Origin: a virus
IMG/VR virus record: IMGVR_UViG_3300046411_000396
Coordinates: 1 to 36,463 of that record
Length of the DNA stretch: 36,463 nt
Direction: 5' to 3' (one strand)
Below the pieces are notes generated by a model, which worked only from the letters and a program-made list of their open reading frames with translations, was not told where the DNA came from and did no database searches. This document shows, piece after piece, positions 1,428-30,252 of this stretch (position 1 is its first letter; each line of letters starts with the position of its first letter). The translations under genes were made by a program, and so were the position numbers.

Positions 1428-3524
1428 TTAAACTTCCTCTAGTTTAAACTTATATTTTTTACCAGATTTGTTATTAAATAAATAAAGATCTTCTGCACCC
1501 TCTTGAATTGTCCAGCTACCTTTAGTGCCATCAACTGCATTACCTTCTGATTTAGATTCATTAGATAAATGTAAATCTCCAGTGTATAAGTTTCTCCAAA
1601 CATTGTCTGAAGCACCGAGGTCATGACTATCATTAGCTCCTGGAACAATATCTCCAGTTACTGTTAATGTAGATCCATCAAACTGCATATTAGCTTCTGC
1701 ATTCATACCATCTGCACCTGTAGCTGTAACAACTCTGTTGTTAGAACCGTTTGACATAAAGTCTGATACATCAACTGAAATTGCATCTGCAGCAACATCG
1801 ATACCTGTGCCTGCTCCAACATTTAAAGTAGCAGCTCCACTAGTTGCACCGCCTGTTAATCCAGATCCTGCTACAACAGAAGTAATGTCTCCAGTGTTTG
1901 TAGTAAACCCAGCGTCATTATTAAAAATAGATAAACCTATTTCACTAGCCGCTTTTCTTCTCTCTGCACTTGAATCTAAAACAATAAATTCATCTGACCC
2001 AGTCATTGTAGCTGTCATGTCAGTAAGTTCTGATAAATCTAAATCAACACTAATAGTACCAGAAGTTGTAACAGCTGAACCAGCATCTAATCCAGTTCCT
2101 GGTGTAATACCAACACTAGTTACTGTACCTGTATTTGTAGTAAAGCCAGAGTCATTATTAAAACCTGAAATATTAATATTACCTTTAGTTAATTTTTTCT
2201 GAGCATTTGATGCATCTACTACTGCAAAAAAATCACCATCGCCATTTGAAGTAGAAGTCGTAAGTTCAGAAAGATCAACATCTATTTGATCTGCTTGAAC
2301 ATCAATTAAGTTTCCAGCTCCAACGTTTAAAGTAGCTGCACCGGAAGTTGCTCCTCCAGTTAAACCAGATCCTGCTACAACTGAAGTTATATCTCCAGTA
2401 GTTGGTGTTTCAAAAGTAAGTGCGCCTGATCCATCAGTTGTTAAAACTTGGTTAGCTGATCCGTCTGATGTTGGAAGTGTATATGCTCCGTTTACATTAA
2501 CAGTACCTGTTGTTTGTACACCAGCAGATGTTGTTTCTAATTTCTTAGAGTTGTCATGGTAAAGTTCGACAGCACCATTATTATTGCAATCAATGTGTGT
2601 TTCATTCCTTGCACCATTAGTAATTTGAACATCGTTTCCAGCAAGAACTAAATTTCCAGAGCCAGCATCTCTAACAATACTTCCTTCAGACGGATCATGA
2701 TATATTTGTAAATCTGAACCTGCTCCAAAGATAGCTTTGTCATTATCTCCAAAATTAATATCAGCAGTGGTTGTTAATCCTGCAAAAGTAGGACTAGCTG
2801 AAGTAGCCACACTTTGACCAATAGCTATATCGTCAGCGTTAACTGTAACACCAGTTCCTGCGCCAACATTTAAAGTTGCAGCTCCACTAGTTGCTCCCCC
2901 AGTTAAACCAGAACCTGCTACAACAGAAGTAATATCTCCGACTGTAGGTGTTTGAAACGTAACCGCACCTGATCCATCAGTTGTTAAAACTTGAGAAGAA
3001 GATCCGTCTGATGTAGGTAATGTGTAGGCTGAAAGACCAAAGTTTGATCCATCACCTTGAATAATTTTTCCAGAAGTTGTCGATAATCCTGCAACGTCTT
3101 GTAGTTGAGCATCTAGTCTTGCATTTGGAACTGTGCCTGAAGCTAGATTACTTGCATTTAAATTTGTTAATGCTGATCCATTATTTGCTACAATGTTTCC
3201 GCTAGCATCTTTAATGACTGCTTTAGACGCAGGAAGAGTACAGAAAACATCTTTAGTTCCCGCAGAAAAATTTACCGCGGAGTCACTATTTGATGATGAA
3301 ATAACTGTAGTTCTTGCGAGAGTATCTGGTGTTGCATCAGTTACTGTACCTAGGCCTACTTCAAACTCACCATTCTCATTTACAATTGAGTAGTAAGTTG
3401 TATTAGAATTACCTATACCGGCAACAAATGTTTCAAAACCTGTTACTGCGCCTGCAAGACTAAGAGTACCCGTACCAGTAGTGGTCGAAGTCTCTTTGAC
3501 TCTGTCGTTTACAACCAATGCCAT
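1428..3524 (-). CDS. Tail fibre-like protein with three long internal repeats
   Basis: 698 aa. The first ~105 residues form a module I know from marine phage fibres (DRVKETSTTTGTGT, then an SAGTKDVFCTLPASKAV segment). Three nearly identical modules, GDITSVVAGSGLTGG plus ATSGAATLNVGAG, start near residues 197, 377 and 546; YTLPTSDGS occurs twice (near 167 and 348). The C terminus has DLGASDNVWRNLYTGDLHLS, a common end-of-fibre pattern, and stops at KLEEV without a visible S74 chaperone domain. It sits between a 146-aa structural protein and the VTGQ-repeat protein. The likely role is host recognition or tail-fibre shaft; the fibre call is by composition and context. Confidence 0.88.
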   Translation of the reverse strand: MALVVNDRVKETSTTTGTGTLSLAGAVTGFETFVAGIGNSNTTYYSIVNENGEFEVGLGTVTDATPDTLARTTVISSSNSDSAVNFSAGTKDVFCTLPASKAVIKDASGNIVANNGSALTNLNASNLASGTVPNARLDAQLQDVAGLSTTSGKIIQGDGSNFGLSAYTLPTSDGSSSQVLTTDGSGAVTFQTPTVGDITSVVAGSGLTGGATSGAATLNVGAGTGVTVNADDIAIGQSVATSASPTFAGLTTTADINFGDNDKAIFGAGSDLQIYHDPSEGSIVRDAGSGNLVLAGNDVQITNGARNETHIDCNNNGAVELYHDNSKKLETTSAGVQTTGTVNVNGAYTLPTSDGSANQVLTTDGSGALTFETPTTGDITSVVAGSGLTGGATSGAATLNVGAGNLIDVQADQIDVDLSELTTSTSNGDGDFFAVVDASNAQKKLTKGNINISGFNNDSGFTTNTGTVTSVGITPGTGLDAGSAVTTSGTISVDLDLSELTDMTATMTGSDEFIVLDSSAERRKAASEIGLSIFNNDAGFTTNTGDITSVVAGSGLTGGATSGAATLNVGAGTGIDVAADAISVDVSDFMSNGSNNRVVTATGADGMNAEANMQFDGSTLTVTGDIVPGANDSHDLGASDNVWRNLYTGDLHLSNESKSEGNAVDGTKGSWTIQEGAEDLYLFNNKSGKKYKFKLEEV

Positions 3525-16103: not shown

Positions 16104-16269
16104 TTATTTTCTCCAATTTATCTTGTTTATATGCTTTTGATTCATTAATCAAGCCTTGTGGATCAGGGCCACTTAATGGTGGGATTTGATCTCGTTTTAC
16201 ATGTTTCATGTTTTTAACAAGAGTAGGGTTTTTTACATACTTACTAGGGTGTTTAAATACGAACGTCAT
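16057..16269 (-). CDS. Small terminase-portal linker protein, unknown
   Basis: 70 aa, MTFVFKHPSKYVKNPTLVKN, with VKRDQIPPLSGPDPQGLI and a basic C terminus. The IPPLSGPDPQGL motif recurs in small marine phage proteins between terL and portal. The ATG overlaps the terL stop (TAATGA) and the 3-prime end overlaps the portal start by 47 bases. No function is known to me; the fixed position suggests a link with packaging. Confidence 0.72.
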   Translation of the reverse strand: MTFVFKHPSKYVKNPTLVKNMKHVKRDQIPPLSGPDPQGLINESKAYKQDKLEKINGRHRQSINRNKKNG

Positions 16270-17744
16270 TACCAGTAAAATTTCTTTTTTCTTTTGGGTT
16301 GGTCTTCTTCTTGATAATCTTCAGGGTGATCTATAAATCCGCCTTGTCTGTATCTTAACAGAGCCTGTGTTGTGCTGTCAACTAAATCGTCATGATCACC
16401 ATAAGGAAACGCTGCACACTCTTCAACAAGCTCTTGTGCAAACTCTTGATCGAGAGGCGCCCAAATTTGTCCGGCTTCAAAAAGTGGAGAGACTGCATTA
16501 ACTCTTGCAACTTTATCTTGACCTTTACTTGGTGTAAAATTCATTGCAGGAATTCCCATGTTACGTAACTCATACATCAAAGGTAGTCCTGATGCTTTTG
16601 CTTCAATAATGACTGTCTCAGGATTCCAATATTTATATTGTTCCAGTGCAACACGACGTAACTCTGGAAACTCTAAACGTTCTTTATAAGAATCTAATAA
16701 TATTAATTGACGAGGCGAGTCTTCATTAGGACGAAAAACTCCCCAGGTAGTAATAGCAGAGTAGTCTGCAGTTTCTTTTTTAAGATACGCTGTATCATAA
16801 CTTTGAATTGTGTGTTCGATGTGAGGCATATGTTTAGATTCCCAATTTTTCCACCACTCCCTTTTAATGAGAGCTCCTTCTTCTGAAGTTGGGTTCTGCA
16901 TATACTGAGCGTTCCACTTTGCAACACCCGCAGATGCTTTAACAGAATTTAAATCTTCTAACTTCCAATACTCTGGCCACACAGGTTCACCTGAAGGTAA
17001 GATTGCAGGGAACTCTACGACTTCCCATTGATCCGCGTTCTCGTTGCTTTGTGCGTTTAACAATCTTTGTGTTAAATCTTTTGTAGACCATCTTGTCATA
17101 ACCAAAACAATACGACCTCCTGGTTGAAGACGTTGTCTCGGTCCACTAGTATACCACTCCCATGCATTATCAAATGCCGAAGGTGAGTTTACATCTTGCT
17201 CTGAATGTGGATCATCAATGATGAGTAGATCAGCACCTCTACCGGTTACCGCACCTTGGACACCAACTGCAAAGTATTCGCCGCCATCAGATGTATTCCA
17301 ACGTCCTGCAGCTTTACTATCTTCCTGGAGTCTTGTTTTAAAAATTTGTTGATACTCTTCTGAGTCAATTAAATGTTTTGCTTTACGACCAAAGTTTACT
17401 GCAAGCTCCGCTGTGTGAGTTGCTTGAATTATTTTTAGTTTAGGATTCTGCCCGATCATCCAAGCAGGAAGAAAGAACGACGCAAATTCAGATTTAGTAT
17501 GCCTAGGCGGCATGTTTATAATTAGACGGGTCAAATCTCCAGTTGCCAATCTATTAAATTTATCTGAGATTTCTTTGTGATGGGACCCCTCTATAAAATC
17601 TGGCCACATCCTTTTTACAAAAGATAAAAAATTAGTTTTAACTTGCTTAAGTTCTTTTCTTTGATGTCGTTGTATAATCTGTATCTTGAGCTTCCTTCGC
17701 TCAATCGGATCTTCTATTTTATTAATATCTTCAACAGTTAGCAT
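16269..17744 (-). CDS. terL: Terminase large subunit
   Basis: 491 aa from ATG 17744. It is the packaging ATPase and nuclease that translocates DNA through the portal. Motifs: Walker A-like MPPRHTKS near residues 78-85, Walker B LLIIDDP near 173-179, coupling-type MTRWS (about 217), and nuclease acidic residues in QSYDTA (about 314-319), VIIEAKASG (about 378-386) and GDHDDLVDS (about 449-457). The frame also opens at a GTG at 17777, but the -10 of a promoter lies at 17769-17774 inside that extension, so the ATG at 17744 is preferred. The small subunit is not adjacent: it is 3.7 kb away on the other strand. Confidence 0.93.
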   Translation of the reverse strand: MLTVEDINKIEDPIERRKLKIQIIQRHQRKELKQVKTNFLSFVKRMWPDFIEGSHHKEISDKFNRLATGDLTRLIINMPPRHTKSEFASFFLPAWMIGQNPKLKIIQATHTAELAVNFGRKAKHLIDSEEYQQIFKTRLQEDSKAAGRWNTSDGGEYFAVGVQGAVTGRGADLLIIDDPHSEQDVNSPSAFDNAWEWYTSGPRQRLQPGGRIVLVMTRWSTKDLTQRLLNAQSNENADQWEVVEFPAILPSGEPVWPEYWKLEDLNSVKASAGVAKWNAQYMQNPTSEEGALIKREWWKNWESKHMPHIEHTIQSYDTAYLKKETADYSAITTWGVFRPNEDSPRQLILLDSYKERLEFPELRRVALEQYKYWNPETVIIEAKASGLPLMYELRNMGIPAMNFTPSKGQDKVARVNAVSPLFEAGQIWAPLDQEFAQELVEECAAFPYGDHDDLVDSTTQALLRYRQGGFIDHPEDYQEEDQPKRKKKFYW

Positions 17745-17768
17745 ATATTTCAATATGGGTGGTAAACT

Positions 17769-17796
17769 ATTATACACGATTAACTATCCAAATCAA
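17769..17796 (-). promoter_or_regulatory. Sigma70-type promoter for the terL-portal operon
   Basis: On the minus strand TTGATT and TATAAT are separated by 16 bases. Transcription would begin about 18 bases before the terL ATG (17744). The surrounding gap 17745-18004 (260 bp) contains no gene but holds an inverted repeat ACCCCT/AGGGGT (17818-17838), element R1 and a hairpin. Confidence 0.5.
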
Positions 17797-17896
17797 ACTA
17801 TATAGGGTAGGTCTGGGACCCCTATAATTTTAAGGGGTATTCGCGTAAACATAAACAATTCGAATTTGGATATAGTTCCTTTAGGGTCCCCTCTTA

Positions 17897-17925
17897 GGGT
17901 GGGTCCCGCCCACATGCTCTTCTCT
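17897..17925 (+). repeat. Palindromic GC-rich element, copy R1
   Basis: GGGTGGGTCCCGCCCAC followed by ATGCTCTTCTCT. The first part folds as GTGGGT-CCC-GCCCAC (one G-U pair in plus-strand RNA). It stands out from the AT-rich surroundings. First of five copies, all in one orientation and all in intergenic DNA. Confidence 0.9.
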
Positions 17926-19578: not shown

Positions 19579-19607
19579 ATTATATAGGAATTTATAGGAT
19601 ATGTCAA
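19579..19607 (-). promoter_or_regulatory. Perfect-consensus sigma70 promoter (minus strand)
   Basis: TTGACA and TATAAT with a 17-base spacer, an exact match to the bacterial consensus. The spacer starts with TATCCTATA. Transcription would run left through element R3 and the inner promoter into the 198-aa gene. It forms a divergent pair with the plus-strand promoter at 19641-19669. Confidence 0.8.
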
Positions 19608-19691: not shown

Positions 19692-19859
19692 ATGCGAAAA
19701 TATAAAGTAACACTAGAAGTTGACAGCAAATGGGTCAAAAATTTTAATTTAAGTTTTGACGCTGACAGCGAACAAGAGGCCGAGGCTCAAGCCTTGACTG
19801 AAGTTAAAATGAATCTAAGCGATTATATTACCGCTTATGCTGACGAGGTTGAAGAATGA
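19692..19859 (+). CDS. Hypothetical protein, 55 aa
   Basis: Too short for standard gene calling. ATG at 19692 after the leader AAACGAAAGGAATACAA, TGA at 19857-19859. It reads MRKYKVTLEVDSKWVKNFNL then a helical acidic second half (SEQEAEAQALTEVKMNL; TAYADEVEE), a small beta-alpha protein. Its stop overlaps the ATG of the gp88-like gene by 4 bases (ATGA), so the two are translationally coupled. Function unknown. Confidence 0.78.
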   Translation: MRKYKVTLEVDSKWVKNFNLSFDADSEQEAEAQALTEVKMNLSDYITAYADEVEE

Positions 19860-20455
19860 ATACTAAAAAAGCATGGGATCTAGTCGGCGGCCTTAGCAAG
19901 CCTGGCAAGATGCCAGGATGGGCAATTGGTATACCTGCTGCCGAGTGTAACACGGGCAGCAAGTTAAGATTAATACCTGACTCGGTCTGTAGTACCTGCT
20001 ACGCTTTAAAAGGCTGCTATGTTTTCAAGGTTGTTCAGGATGCTCAGTATAGGAGGCTGAAGGCTTTGAAAAAAAAGTTATGGGTCTTCGCAATGGTGAC
20101 CTTGATCAACTCTAAAAAATCGGATGTATTTAGATGGCATGACTCAGGCGATGTTCAAGATCTAGAACACCTTCGAAAAATTTTTGAAGTTTGTAGACAG
20201 ACGCCGACTAAGCGCCATTGGATGCCTACCAAAGAGGCCTGGATAAAACCATACCTGAAAGACAAGCCTGCGAACCTGGTGATTAGATTATCTTCAAGTA
20301 TGATTAATCAAGCAGGTATTAAAAGCTGGCCGAACACATCAACTGTAGTTACAAAAAAACCTAGCTGTCCAGCGCCAAAGCAGGGCGGCAAATGTTTAGA
20401 TTGTAGAAAATGCTGGAACCCAAAAATTAAGAATATTAGTTATGGTAAACACTAA
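19856..20455 (+). CDS. Gp88-like cysteine-rich protein
   Basis: 199 aa. Cysteines sit in a spaced set: C31, C45, C48, C54 near the N terminus and C171, C180, C183, C186 near the C terminus. The motif FRWHDSGDVQDLEHLRK (about 92-108) and the RHWMPTKEAW segment match what I recall of mycobacteriophage Gp88 and similar phage proteins, and resemble the radical-SAM-related Gp37/Gp68 group; enzyme activity is not established. The Cys pattern suggests a metal or iron-sulphur centre. The gene is noticeably richer in GC than its neighbours (many GGC and CTG codons), a hint of separate origin. It is co-transcribed with the 55-aa gene. Confidence 0.75.
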   Translation: MNTKKAWDLVGGLSKPGKMPGWAIGIPAAECNTGSKLRLIPDSVCSTCYALKGCYVFKVVQDAQYRRLKALKKKLWVFAMVTLINSKKSDVFRWHDSGDVQDLEHLRKIFEVCRQTPTKRHWMPTKEAWIKPYLKDKPANLVIRLSSSMINQAGIKSWPNTSTVVTKKPSCPAPKQGGKCLDCRKCWNPKIKNISYGKH

Positions 20456-20648: not shown

Positions 20649-20669
20649 GGGTGGGTCCCGCCCACAAGC
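20649..20669 (+). repeat. Palindromic GC-rich element, copy R4 (core only)
   Basis: GGGTGGGTCCCGCCCAC plus AAGC; the CTCTTCTCT tail is replaced by unrelated sequence. It starts right after the last codon of the small ORF ending at 20648 and is followed by GC-rich CCACAGG repeats and the parS-like site. Confidence 0.85.
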
Positions 20670-20719: not shown

Positions 20720-20735
20720 TGTTTCACGTGAAACA
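20720..20735. other. parS-like site, exact bacterial consensus
   Basis: TGTTTCACGTGAAACA, a perfect 16-bp palindrome identical to the ParB-binding centromere site of bacterial chromosomes (the consensus TGTTNCACGTGAAACA). It sits in non-coding DNA, 50 bases after R4 and 11 bases before R5. No parA or parB gene is seen in the window. Recruitment of the host ParB is inferred. Confidence 0.85.
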
Positions 20736-20746
20736 AAAAATAAAAA

Positions 20747-20775
20747 GGGTGGGTCCCGCCCACAAGCTCTTCTCT
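20747..20775 (+). repeat. Palindromic GC-rich element, copy R5
   Basis: GGGTGGGTCCCGCCCAC followed by AAGCTCTTCTCT; full-length copy, after an A-rich stretch, adjacent to the parS-like site. Only 98 bases from R4, whereas other copies are 0.77 to 1.1 kb apart. Confidence 0.9.
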
Positions 20776-20825: not shown

Positions 20826-21197
20826 CTAAACCTTTTGTAGAAATTTAAAGCTTGACATCATGCCCGTGGCACACGGTTCGGCAGAACCGGCTACAAGATC
20901 ACGGATCTTGGACCCTTCATAAAGTTTTATGTCTGTCTGACAGAGGCCCTTGGCCATGATGAAACTGTTGTGCGGATGCTTGATATGGAAGCCAATTTGG
21001 TGTGGAGAAAACCGAATTTTTTTAGCCAAATTTAGTTTTAATTCTATAGTGAAAAAGTGACCAGAAGTATTGTAAACCAATAGATCAGGAGTACCGTGTG
21101 CAGCACTATTTTCCAAGCGTGTAAATGATAATTCGCAATTATTTTTAATATTGAACGCCTTAATTTCATGCCAAAATTTAGTCTCTCCCTTAATCAT
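20826..21197 (-). CDS. PD-(D/E)XK nuclease (VRR-NUC-like)
   Basis: 123 aa. Catalytic set: RLEN (E29), GTPDLL (D38) and IELKL (E52, K54), the PD-(D/E)XK signature with spacing of small Holliday-junction/VRR-NUC-type enzymes. The FSPHQIGFHIKHPHNSFIMA stretch fits the family as I recall it in marine phages. Likely role: cleaving branched DNA during replication or packaging. The last ~30 codons are unusual: the DNA is GC-rich with nested inverted repeats (see findings). It is downstream of the small gene at 21226-21453. Confidence 0.82.
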   Translation of the reverse strand: MIKGETKFWHEIKAFNIKNNCELSFTRLENSAAHGTPDLLVYNTSGHFFTIELKLNLAKKIRFSPHQIGFHIKHPHNSFIMAKGLCQTDIKLYEGSKIRDLVAGSAEPCATGMMSSFKFLQKV

Positions 21198-21491: not shown

Positions 21492-21971
21492 ATGGGAGTT
21501 CCAAAAAGACTTACAGAGAAACAAATTAAATTTGCAAATCTAATAGTAACAGAAGAAGGTCGAAAAACTGATTCTGAATGTGCTATTGAAGCAGGTTACG
21601 ATCCAAACTCAGCTTATGTATCCGCTAGCAAATTACAAAACCCATCTCTGTATCCATTAGTTGCTCAATACATTGGAAAACTCAGAGCAGAAAAATTAAA
21701 AAAATATGACATCACTTATGAAAAACACCTGGCGGAACTAGGTAAAATTAGAGATGAAGCTAGGGAGAGTAAAGCCTGGAGTGCTGCAGGTAATATGGAA
21801 ATAGCTAGAGGTAAAGCTGCAGGATTTCAAAATAATACTAATCTACATCTACATAAAAATTTAGATAATGTTGACGAATCAGAGTTAGACAAAGAACTAG
21901 AAAAAGCATTAAAAAACTTTAAACCTATTATTGATGCTGATGCAGAAGTGATTGAAGAGACTAAAGATTAA
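21492..21971 (+). CDS. terS: Terminase small subunit
   Basis: 159 aa. N terminus MGVPKRLTEKQIKFANLIVT and the segment SECAIEAGYDPNSAYVSASK are a helix-turn-helix DNA-recognition region typical of Terminase_2-type small subunits; the middle (KYDITYEKHLAELGKIRDEA) is the oligomerisation helix pair and the C terminus is acidic. It recognises phage DNA and starts packaging with TerL. It is on the plus strand, 3.7 kb from terL on the minus strand. Its end overlaps the convergent 99-aa gene by 11 bases. Confidence 0.85.
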   Translation: MGVPKRLTEKQIKFANLIVTEEGRKTDSECAIEAGYDPNSAYVSASKLQNPSLYPLVAQYIGKLRAEKLKKYDITYEKHLAELGKIRDEARESKAWSAAGNMEIARGKAAGFQNNTNLHLHKNLDNVDESELDKELEKALKNFKPIIDADAEVIEETKD

Positions 21972-28395: not shown

Positions 28396-30252
28396 TCAAC
28401 CATTAATATCTCCCCAATTGTTTGCTAATTCGCAGTCTACTTTATTGGGGACTTCTAAAGTAACTGCATTCTGCATGATCTCAACAATCTCATCTGCTTG
28501 CTTTTGATCTTTTACAGAAATACAAAGTTCATCGTGAATTTGTACGTGTGCTATTATACCGTTTTTATATAAATCTAACATAGCTTTTTTTGTCATGTCA
28601 GCAGCACTTCCTTGTATTAATTTATTTAATGCTTTGTAAGTAAACGCTCTTCTAATCCCTGGTCCGTGTTCCTGTAGTGCTTCTTCGTGAGGCAATGCTT
28701 TATGCATACCGAATTGATTAGGCTCCCACAAATGAAACCTACACAATCGTCCCAAGAGAGTTCGAATTTGACCACGCTCTTGGGCACGATTGGAAGCACT
28801 ATTCATTAACTGCTTAACGAAGGGAACTTTAGCGTGGTATTGATCGAACAATTCTACTGCTTTGTCTTTTGATACACCAAGTTCGGCCTGGAGTTTGGCT
28901 TTACCCATACCGTAGAACAATCCAAGATTAATTACCTTGGCTTGTGATCTTGGAATCTTTGCCATGTCTGCTACAACCTGGTGAAAGTCCGTTGAGGTGT
29001 CATTTTCATAATTATCTATAACGTCATTTACAGACGGAAATTTGTGTAAAGCTGCATAATGCACTACCAACCTAGGCTCTTGCTGAGAATAGTCAAAACT
29101 ACCCCATCTATGGCCCTTCTCGGGTATAAAAATAGACCTAATCATAGGTCCAAGGTCCTTATTTCTGGCAGGAAGTTGCTGTAAATTAGGGTTTGAATAA
29201 GAGAATCTTCCGGTCACAGTTCCGCCTTGATCTGACCTTATTTGATTTATGTCAGCATGGATACGACCTTTATGTTCATGTTTAATTATGGTATCTATAA
29301 AAGTAGTATGAGCCTTATTAACTTCCCTAGCTTTAGCTATCATTCTAACTACAGGATGTTCATGATTAGAAATAAAATTTTTAGTAAAAGAGGGTGCTTG
29401 TGATTTTGCAGTTCTTTCATAAGTTAAACCAAGTTTGTCAAAAACTTTGGCAACACTTCTTGCAGCCATTAATTGAACATCTACTCCTGTTTCTTTTTTT
29501 ATTTGGTGGAGTAATGTTTCTTCTTCTAATGTTAATTGTTTCTTTAATTTATGAGCTCTTTGAACGTCCACTTTCACCCCAAGAAATCTCATGTCTACCA
29601 GACAAGGAAACAAATCTGTTTCGAGTTCAAAAATAGACTCAACATCTTGATGCAGTAATTCTTTTTTAAATATCTGCCAAAGTTCTAATGTAAGTTCTGC
29701 ATCTTTCTCTGCGTAAGATCCAACATACATTGCTGGCAGTTGCCACATATCTGCTTTAGGATCTAGTCCTCTAGACTTTGCTTCTTCATTTAGTGCAGAC
29801 TCGTTTTTACCATGACCTAAATAATCCCAAGACAAACTATTTAAATCAAATCTAAATCTATTTTCATCAATCAATGATGCTGCAATCATGGTGTCTACTA
29901 TCTGTCCATTGATTTGTATGCCCATAGATTTAATCCAACAAACATCATACATCGCATTATGAAATATTTTTATAGCATCTGATTCACAAACATCTTTGAA
30001 CCACTCTAAAGTCTTTTTACGATCCATGTTTGGCCCTGATCCGTGAGCAATTGGGAAATAAAATTTTCTACCAGGTACGGCAACAGCAATACCTACTACT
30101 TCACCATTACCAATAATAGATCCACTACCTTTAGATTTTAAATCAGGATCTCTTGTCTCTAAGTCAATTGCTATCTCGTCGTATTTTCTTAGATCTGGAT
30201 ATTCCTCTGGTTCATTCCATTCGGTTTGTGCTTCAAATAGAGGTACTTTCAT
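28396..30252 (-). CDS. DNA polymerase A family, with 3-prime to 5-prime exonuclease
   Basis: 618 aa. Exonuclease: motif I IDLETRD (D30, E32), motif II HNAMYDVCW (about 98-106), motif III YAEKDAEL (about 180-187). Polymerase: TGRFSYSNPNLQQLPAR (about 347-363), motif A FDYSQQEPRL (386-395, D387), motif B RSQAKVINLGLFYGMG (435-450) and motif C IHDELCIS (572-579). All catalytic residues are present and the size is usual for a phage Pol I without a 5-prime nuclease domain. It replicates the genome with the helicase and primase downstream in the sequence but earlier in the operon. Confidence 0.97.
   Translation of the reverse strand: MKVPLFEAQTEWNEPEEYPDLRKYDEIAIDLETRDPDLKSKGSGSIIGNGEVVGIAVAVPGRKFYFPIAHGSGPNMDRKKTLEWFKDVCESDAIKIFHNAMYDVCWIKSMGIQINGQIVDTMIAASLIDENRFRFDLNSLSWDYLGHGKNESALNEEAKSRGLDPKADMWQLPAMYVGSYAEKDAELTLELWQIFKKELLHQDVESIFELETDLFPCLVDMRFLGVKVDVQRAHKLKKQLTLEEETLLHQIKKETGVDVQLMAARSVAKVFDKLGLTYERTAKSQAPSFTKNFISNHEHPVVRMIAKAREVNKAHTTFIDTIIKHEHKGRIHADINQIRSDQGGTVTGRFSYSNPNLQQLPARNKDLGPMIRSIFIPEKGHRWGSFDYSQQEPRLVVHYAALHKFPSVNDVIDNYENDTSTDFHQVVADMAKIPRSQAKVINLGLFYGMGKAKLQAELGVSKDKAVELFDQYHAKVPFVKQLMNSASNRAQERGQIRTLLGRLCRFHLWEPNQFGMHKALPHEEALQEHGPGIRRAFTYKALNKLIQGSAADMTKKAMLDLYKNGIIAHVQIHDELCISVKDQKQADEIVEIMQNAVTLEVPNKVDCELANNWGDING

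Follow-up and report, generated by a model that had tools for sequence, protein, structure and literature searches.

Why would a virus in which neither ParA nor ParB can be found carry a perfect copy of the site on which bacteria load ParB? The question is raised by TGTTTCACGTGAAACA, a 16-nt perfect palindrome at positions 20720-20735 of a viral stretch of 36,463 nt (the window, by which the whole stretch analysed is meant), which exactly matches the chromosomal-type 16-bp parS palindrome TGTTNCACGTGAAACA. ParB-CTP is known to load at parS, to spread and to engage ParA and SMC. The site is present in a single copy, no second parS was found at ≤3 mismatches when the whole window was scanned, and the window contains no other perfect 16-nt palindrome. 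Chance would be expected to produce the exact 16-mer 1.2e-5 times per window from base composition, or 1.35e-5 times under a first-order Markov model. The site lies in non-coding DNA, 265 nt behind the stop of an ORF of the GP88 family and ahead of a small nuclease-like ORF on the opposite strand (Table 1), and is flanked by the fourth and fifth of five copies of a hairpin, GGGTGGGTCCCGCCCAC. A preliminary description, made from the sequence alone, had claimed an exact parS, very unlikely by chance in 36 kb, in non-coding DNA between repeat copies R4 and R5, and all of this held (16/16 match, unique in the window, ~1.3e-5 expected). That the palindrome is a selected parS is very likely.

Table 1. 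Positions in the window of parS and of the features that surround it.
Feature	Position	Strand	Remarks
Terminase large subunit (terL)	16269..17777	-	phrog_38, E=7.5e-111
Vacant location B	17850..17866	.	~73 nt upstream of terL start; parS here in relatives, not in the window
GP88-family protein (PF17338)	19856..20455	+	Pfam E=1.4e-25; phylogenetic anchor; one side of parS
GC-rich hairpin repeat, fourth copy	20649..20665	-	terminator-like
parS (location A)	20720..20735	.	TGTTTCACGTGAAACA, exact and unique in the window; kept in the clade
GC-rich hairpin repeat, fifth copy	20747..20763	-	terminator-like, followed by a T-rich tract on the - strand; between nuclease-like ORF and parS
Small nuclease-like ORF	20826..21197	-	phrog_2165, no Pfam match; other side of parS
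Terminase small subunit (terS)	21492..21971	+	phrog_51

The window can be assigned to an HTVC023P-type pelagiphage, of which it is a fragment, because its gene order (terminase, portal, capsid, DNA polymerase A, helicase, primase) and its TerL agree with those of the Pelagibacter phages HTVC027P, HTVC023P and 023Pt_psg01 (psg01), which have genomes of 57-61 kb and TerL proteins 69%, 59% and 67% identical to that of the window, respectively. Only ~60% of a 58-60 kb genome is covered. The host is likely to be SAR11, an inference that rests on relatedness to known pelagiphages only. HTVC027P infects HTCC1062 and has been described as obligately lytic (PMC12753301), from which a lytic lifestyle is inferred for the phage of the window.

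A search based on GP88 returned 80 loci, 33 rows of which make up the clade of the window. The site is found with ≤1 mismatch in 28 of these 33 members, the remainder consisting of two with two mismatches (L260 and L261) and three in which no site was seen but which are truncated (L259, L277 and L278). Two places have been observed for it: at location A it follows the GP88 stop at a distance of 140-851 nt, and at location B it lies upstream of terL, 72-75 nt from the start of that gene. In every clade member in which both flanks are seen it falls within the terS-terL block. Where a record spans A as well as B, as 20 in the clade do, there is always a single site, at A in 11 and at B in nine, and never at both or at neither. 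Much of the sequence surrounding location B in the window is shared with relatives, only the palindrome being missing. On the GP88 tree, A and B are interleaved within a well-supported subclade (e.g. L271, with B, groups with L266 and L267, with A, at 99/98), and the site must therefore have been relocated repeatedly while being kept, possibly by recombination between the two locations. The preliminary description had proposed to look for the 16-mer at the same place in related phages; the closest relatives indeed keep it there, while others have it just upstream of terL.

Variation among 26 sequences of the site is restricted to positions 1, 5, 15 and 16, with 10-12 positions invariant, in contrast to a mean identity of 59% at GP88 third codon positions. 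Of the four, position 5 corresponds to the N in the parS consensus; the variants at positions 1 and 16 are also found in SAR11 host sites. A reversed-sequence control matched 0/50 records. HTVC027P has a one-mismatch site, CGTTTCACGTGAAACA, in the same genome block, inside the coding sequence of the nuclease-like ORF. This ORF (~16216-16563 in HTVC027P, L122), a homologue of the one in the window, is missing from the GenBank annotation. No parS was found in HTVC023P, which has the same host strain as HTVC027P, or in psg01, and the site is therefore a feature of the clade that is dispensable for infecting SAR11. Nor was any found in more distant GP88 relatives (≤73% identity), though these are mostly fragments. 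As a separate observation, HTVC023P (L124) has a different perfect-palindrome-like 16-mer, TGTTACACATGTAACA, at 29137-29152.

Several other elements were seen in the neighbourhood. Five hairpins of the form GGGTGGG[T/C]CCCGCCCAC are found at window positions 17897, 18766, 19540, 20649 and 20747, all in the terS-terL block. They probably act as terminators that separate small transcription units, and psg01 has related GC-rich motifs. The hairpin at 20749-20763 and its T tract are terminator-like for the nuclease-like ORF, with parS directly after, and the same hairpin adjoins parS in relatives at location A and at location B alike. A sigma-70 promoter with a perfect 12/12 consensus (TTGACA-17-TATAAT) is found on the - strand at 19579-19607, and degenerate internal repeats occur at 749-1407 and 1757-3030 in large - strand ORFs, probably tail or fibre proteins.

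No ParABS system of the phage's own could be found. Models for ParB_N, HTH_ParB and AAA_31 (ParA) (PF02195, PF17762 and PF13614, respectively) had no match in the window, nor in HTVC027P, HTVC023P, psg01 or G037, a complete relative of 58.7 kb whose ends overlap by 353 nt, while the control genomes gave matches. The claim that the window has no parA or parB thus held by profile search, and a parB lying beyond the window, which would have spoken against the preliminary description, was found in none of the complete relatives, G037 and HTVC027P included. The terminal overlap of G037 (L443, L444), which is 352/353 identical, contains parS, and the contigs of several GP88 relatives stop within ~550 nt behind GP88; these ends might be assembly breaks at hairpins or a physical genome end.

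The counterpart of the phage site is readily found in the putative host. SAR11 was sampled through 20 single-cell or partial genomes, identified via a 16S probe, and 15 of these have exactly one site at ≤1 mismatch (12 exact and three with one mismatch, the latter being outer-base variants that are also present in phages). The SAR11 parS overlaps the first codons of gidB, beside parA-parB. The order gidB, parA, parB was seen in the one genome examined in detail; in others ParB_N lies ~1.5-1.8 kb from parS, and 18/20 genomes have a ParB_N match. SAR11 ParB can be aligned with the Caulobacter ParB of solved structures, and in 14/14 sequences the residues that set specificity for parS (PMC7383237), R173 and G201, are invariant and are not those of Noc. 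The shared contacts G170, K171, S172 and N178 are likewise invariant in 14/14, and R204 is replaced by K in 14/14. ScpA was found in 11 of the 13 SAR11 genomes tested, while an SMC-hinge model matched 0/20, but the same model also missed the Caulobacter control. The likely host therefore passes the check that had been suggested for it, since it uses the same palindrome once per genome and has a ParB of the parS-binding type.

Shown, then, are an exact and conserved site, its exclusive single copy at A or B, the lack of a phage ParAB, and a host parS beside a parS-type ParB. Recruitment of the host ParB, as the preliminary description had proposed, is well supported because the site is kept, no phage ParB is found and SAR11 has both the same parS and a parS-type ParB. 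It is likely that the site is a host-type parS to which host ParB binds, with the caveats that there are no binding data and that the host is known by relatedness alone. The mechanism that we propose is that, in an infected SAR11 cell, the CTP-dependent host ParB clamp would load at the single phage parS and spread along the phage DNA, which would link the phage genome to the ParABS machinery of its host without phage parA or parB. The most likely benefit would be that the phage genome, present in one or a few copies, is retained and placed within a very small cell that divides slowly, through partition or positioning before and during a slow or paused infection, by analogy with phi29 and Spo0J. 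We lean towards this reading as a whole, by a small margin; that ParB binds in vivo is inferred, as is the benefit. The purpose of the site is not settled (besides retention, positioning or segregation, the titration of ParB, the timing of late genes and the loading of SMC have to be considered), and the uses named by the preliminary description, i.e. positioning, segregation or protection, remain inference. HTVC027P being described as obligately lytic, there is no obvious need for long-term partition, and we are inclined to doubt, if only slightly, that retention or segregation is the main purpose.

Other explanations give host ParB a different part. The site could be a decoy, replicated phage genomes titrating ParB off the single host parS and blocking chromosome segregation and division. 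With one parS per host genome, the host site would be in the minority once a few dozen phage copies are present, and the scheme would need no phage ParB, none having been detected either in the window or in the complete relatives. However, a decoy would be expected to be multiplied, as in unrelated contigs with five copies (L017 and L044), and no phage genome of the clade has more than its single site, which favours recruitment and makes a decoy unlikely. Alternatively, ParB spreading might silence terL or the structural operon, or block packaging, as long as phage copy number is low, until replication dilutes ParB and lifts the block. Such a late-gene timer would be consistent with the constant presence of the site in the terS-terL block, with the fixed distance of location B from terL, and with the presence in other lineages of parS at or just before terL. 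Against it, location A is 2.4-4.2 kb away from the terL start, proximity to terL was seen in six of 11 clusters against 5.5 expected under a non-coding null (p=0.49), and the terS-terL block may be no more than the place where most of the non-coding DNA is found. A timer is improbable, although it cannot be excluded. The same holds for the loading of host SMC-ScpAB by ParB at parS, which would condense phage DNA or free it of entanglements ahead of packaging. ParB-parS is a known SMC loader, and the frequent presence of ScpA in SAR11 is in its favour; but SMC itself has not been shown in SAR11 and there is no phage-specific evidence.

Still other explanations dispense with host ParB altogether. 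The palindrome could serve a phage protein (a regulator or TerS) as operator or packaging signal, its likeness to parS being coincidental. It does lie close to terS and terL, with phage hairpins around it, and location B is promoter-proximal. Nevertheless, the 16/16 identity with the host parS, the same tolerated outer-base variants and the free movement of the site over several kb make this very unlikely. A chance match is all but excluded by the ~1.3e-5 occurrences expected per window and by conservation in 28/33 relatives. A fragment of host gidB has also been ruled out, the flanks of the window site being phage hairpins. In the 120 viral loci that have the site, tblastn with SAR11 queries returned nothing resembling gidB or parA, and the VSRE motif of gidB is encoded by parS itself and hence is trivial as a gidB marker.

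Returning to recruitment of host ParB, the nearest precedent is found in phi29 and Spo0J of Bacillus, a ParB reported to mediate the entrapment of the phi29 genome in the spore (Meijer et al. 2005, cited in PMC9437464). The same scan applied to phi29 (EU771092) revealed four parS-type sites, TGTTTCACGTGGAACA, spread over its right half (10.4-18.8 kb). Both cases involve a virulent podovirus-type phage, host-type parS sites and, by inference for the pelagiphage, a host ParB homologue in the fate of the phage genome. The combination of a lytic phage and a host parS without a phage ParB is seen in the clade, although lysis is stated for HTVC027P only. The phages are, however, unrelated, and phi29 has four spread sites and a sporulating host while the pelagiphage has a single site that moves; since SAR11 forms no spores, the purpose must differ. 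A second parallel is the island SGI1, which hijacks the ParABS of IncC plasmids (PMC10954446); it is again a mobile element without ParAB whose parS sites exploit the ParABS of another replicon for stability, but the target is a plasmid system, the island is integrative and a helper protein is involved. It is the absence of spores in the host, the single movable site and the ecological reach that set the pelagiphage case apart from phi29 and SGI1. Compared with the chromosomal ParABS of alphaproteobacteria and SAR11, the 16-bp site is identical and the presumed ParB is the same, but the pelagiphage site belongs to a virus, does not lie in gidB and is without parAB. The phage-plasmids P1 and N15 encode ParA and ParB with a centromere of their own. 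The partition logic is common to these, but neither protein was found in the pelagiphage clade, and the window, G037 and HTVC027P do not qualify as phages with a self-encoded ParABS partition system.

The site is not confined to pelagiphages. The exact 16-mer was found in at least 120 IMG/VR stretches (~92 nucleotide clusters), and 17 of these stretches have 2-5 copies. Three control palindromes were found in 1, 1 and 33 stretches of viral contigs, all 33 in single copy; the two with one stretch each would alone overstate the enrichment. Measured against the commonest control (at least 120 versus 33), parS is over-represented at least 3.6-fold, and probably more. Any ParB_N match was seen in only 3/50 parS-bearing records, and in 1/50 above the cut-off. 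A general link between parS and terL was considered and rejected: 22/34 loci suggested it by eye, yet the link did not reach significance when independent clusters were compared with a non-coding null. Two lineages may be mentioned here. In the unrelated one that comprises L017 and L044 (with L049, L053 and L098), five exact parS lie within ~1 kb before terL in L017 and L044, forming a centromere-like array on a phage; ParB_N was absent from the three records tested (L017, L044 and L053). In the L007 lineage (L019, L027, L029, L042, L066, L083, L093, L097, L101, L111, L119 and L120), which has a higher GC and a TerL 58-63% identical to that of the window, parS is within ~110 nt of the terL start.

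A bolder reading is that lytic pelagiphages and many ParB-less phages use the host ParB clamp as a general genome handle in non-sporulating hosts, which could as well prove wrong as right. Whether there is a widespread hijack of chromosome segregation for position, inheritance or copy-number sensing of late genes is just as evenly balanced. No report of parS in pelagiphages was found in the open-access literature searched, which is weak evidence of absence since most subscription papers were outside it, and phi29 is the only precedent found there for the use of the host ParB clamp by a phage. Few marine viruses are as abundant as pelagiphages, and few bacteria as abundant as SAR11. If our reading is correct, host ParB would be a player in the infection of non-sporulating cells, which can be tested directly in a cultured isolate, HTVC027P on HTCC1062, and, with exact parS in at least 120 viral stretches that mostly lack ParB, the strategy may be widespread.
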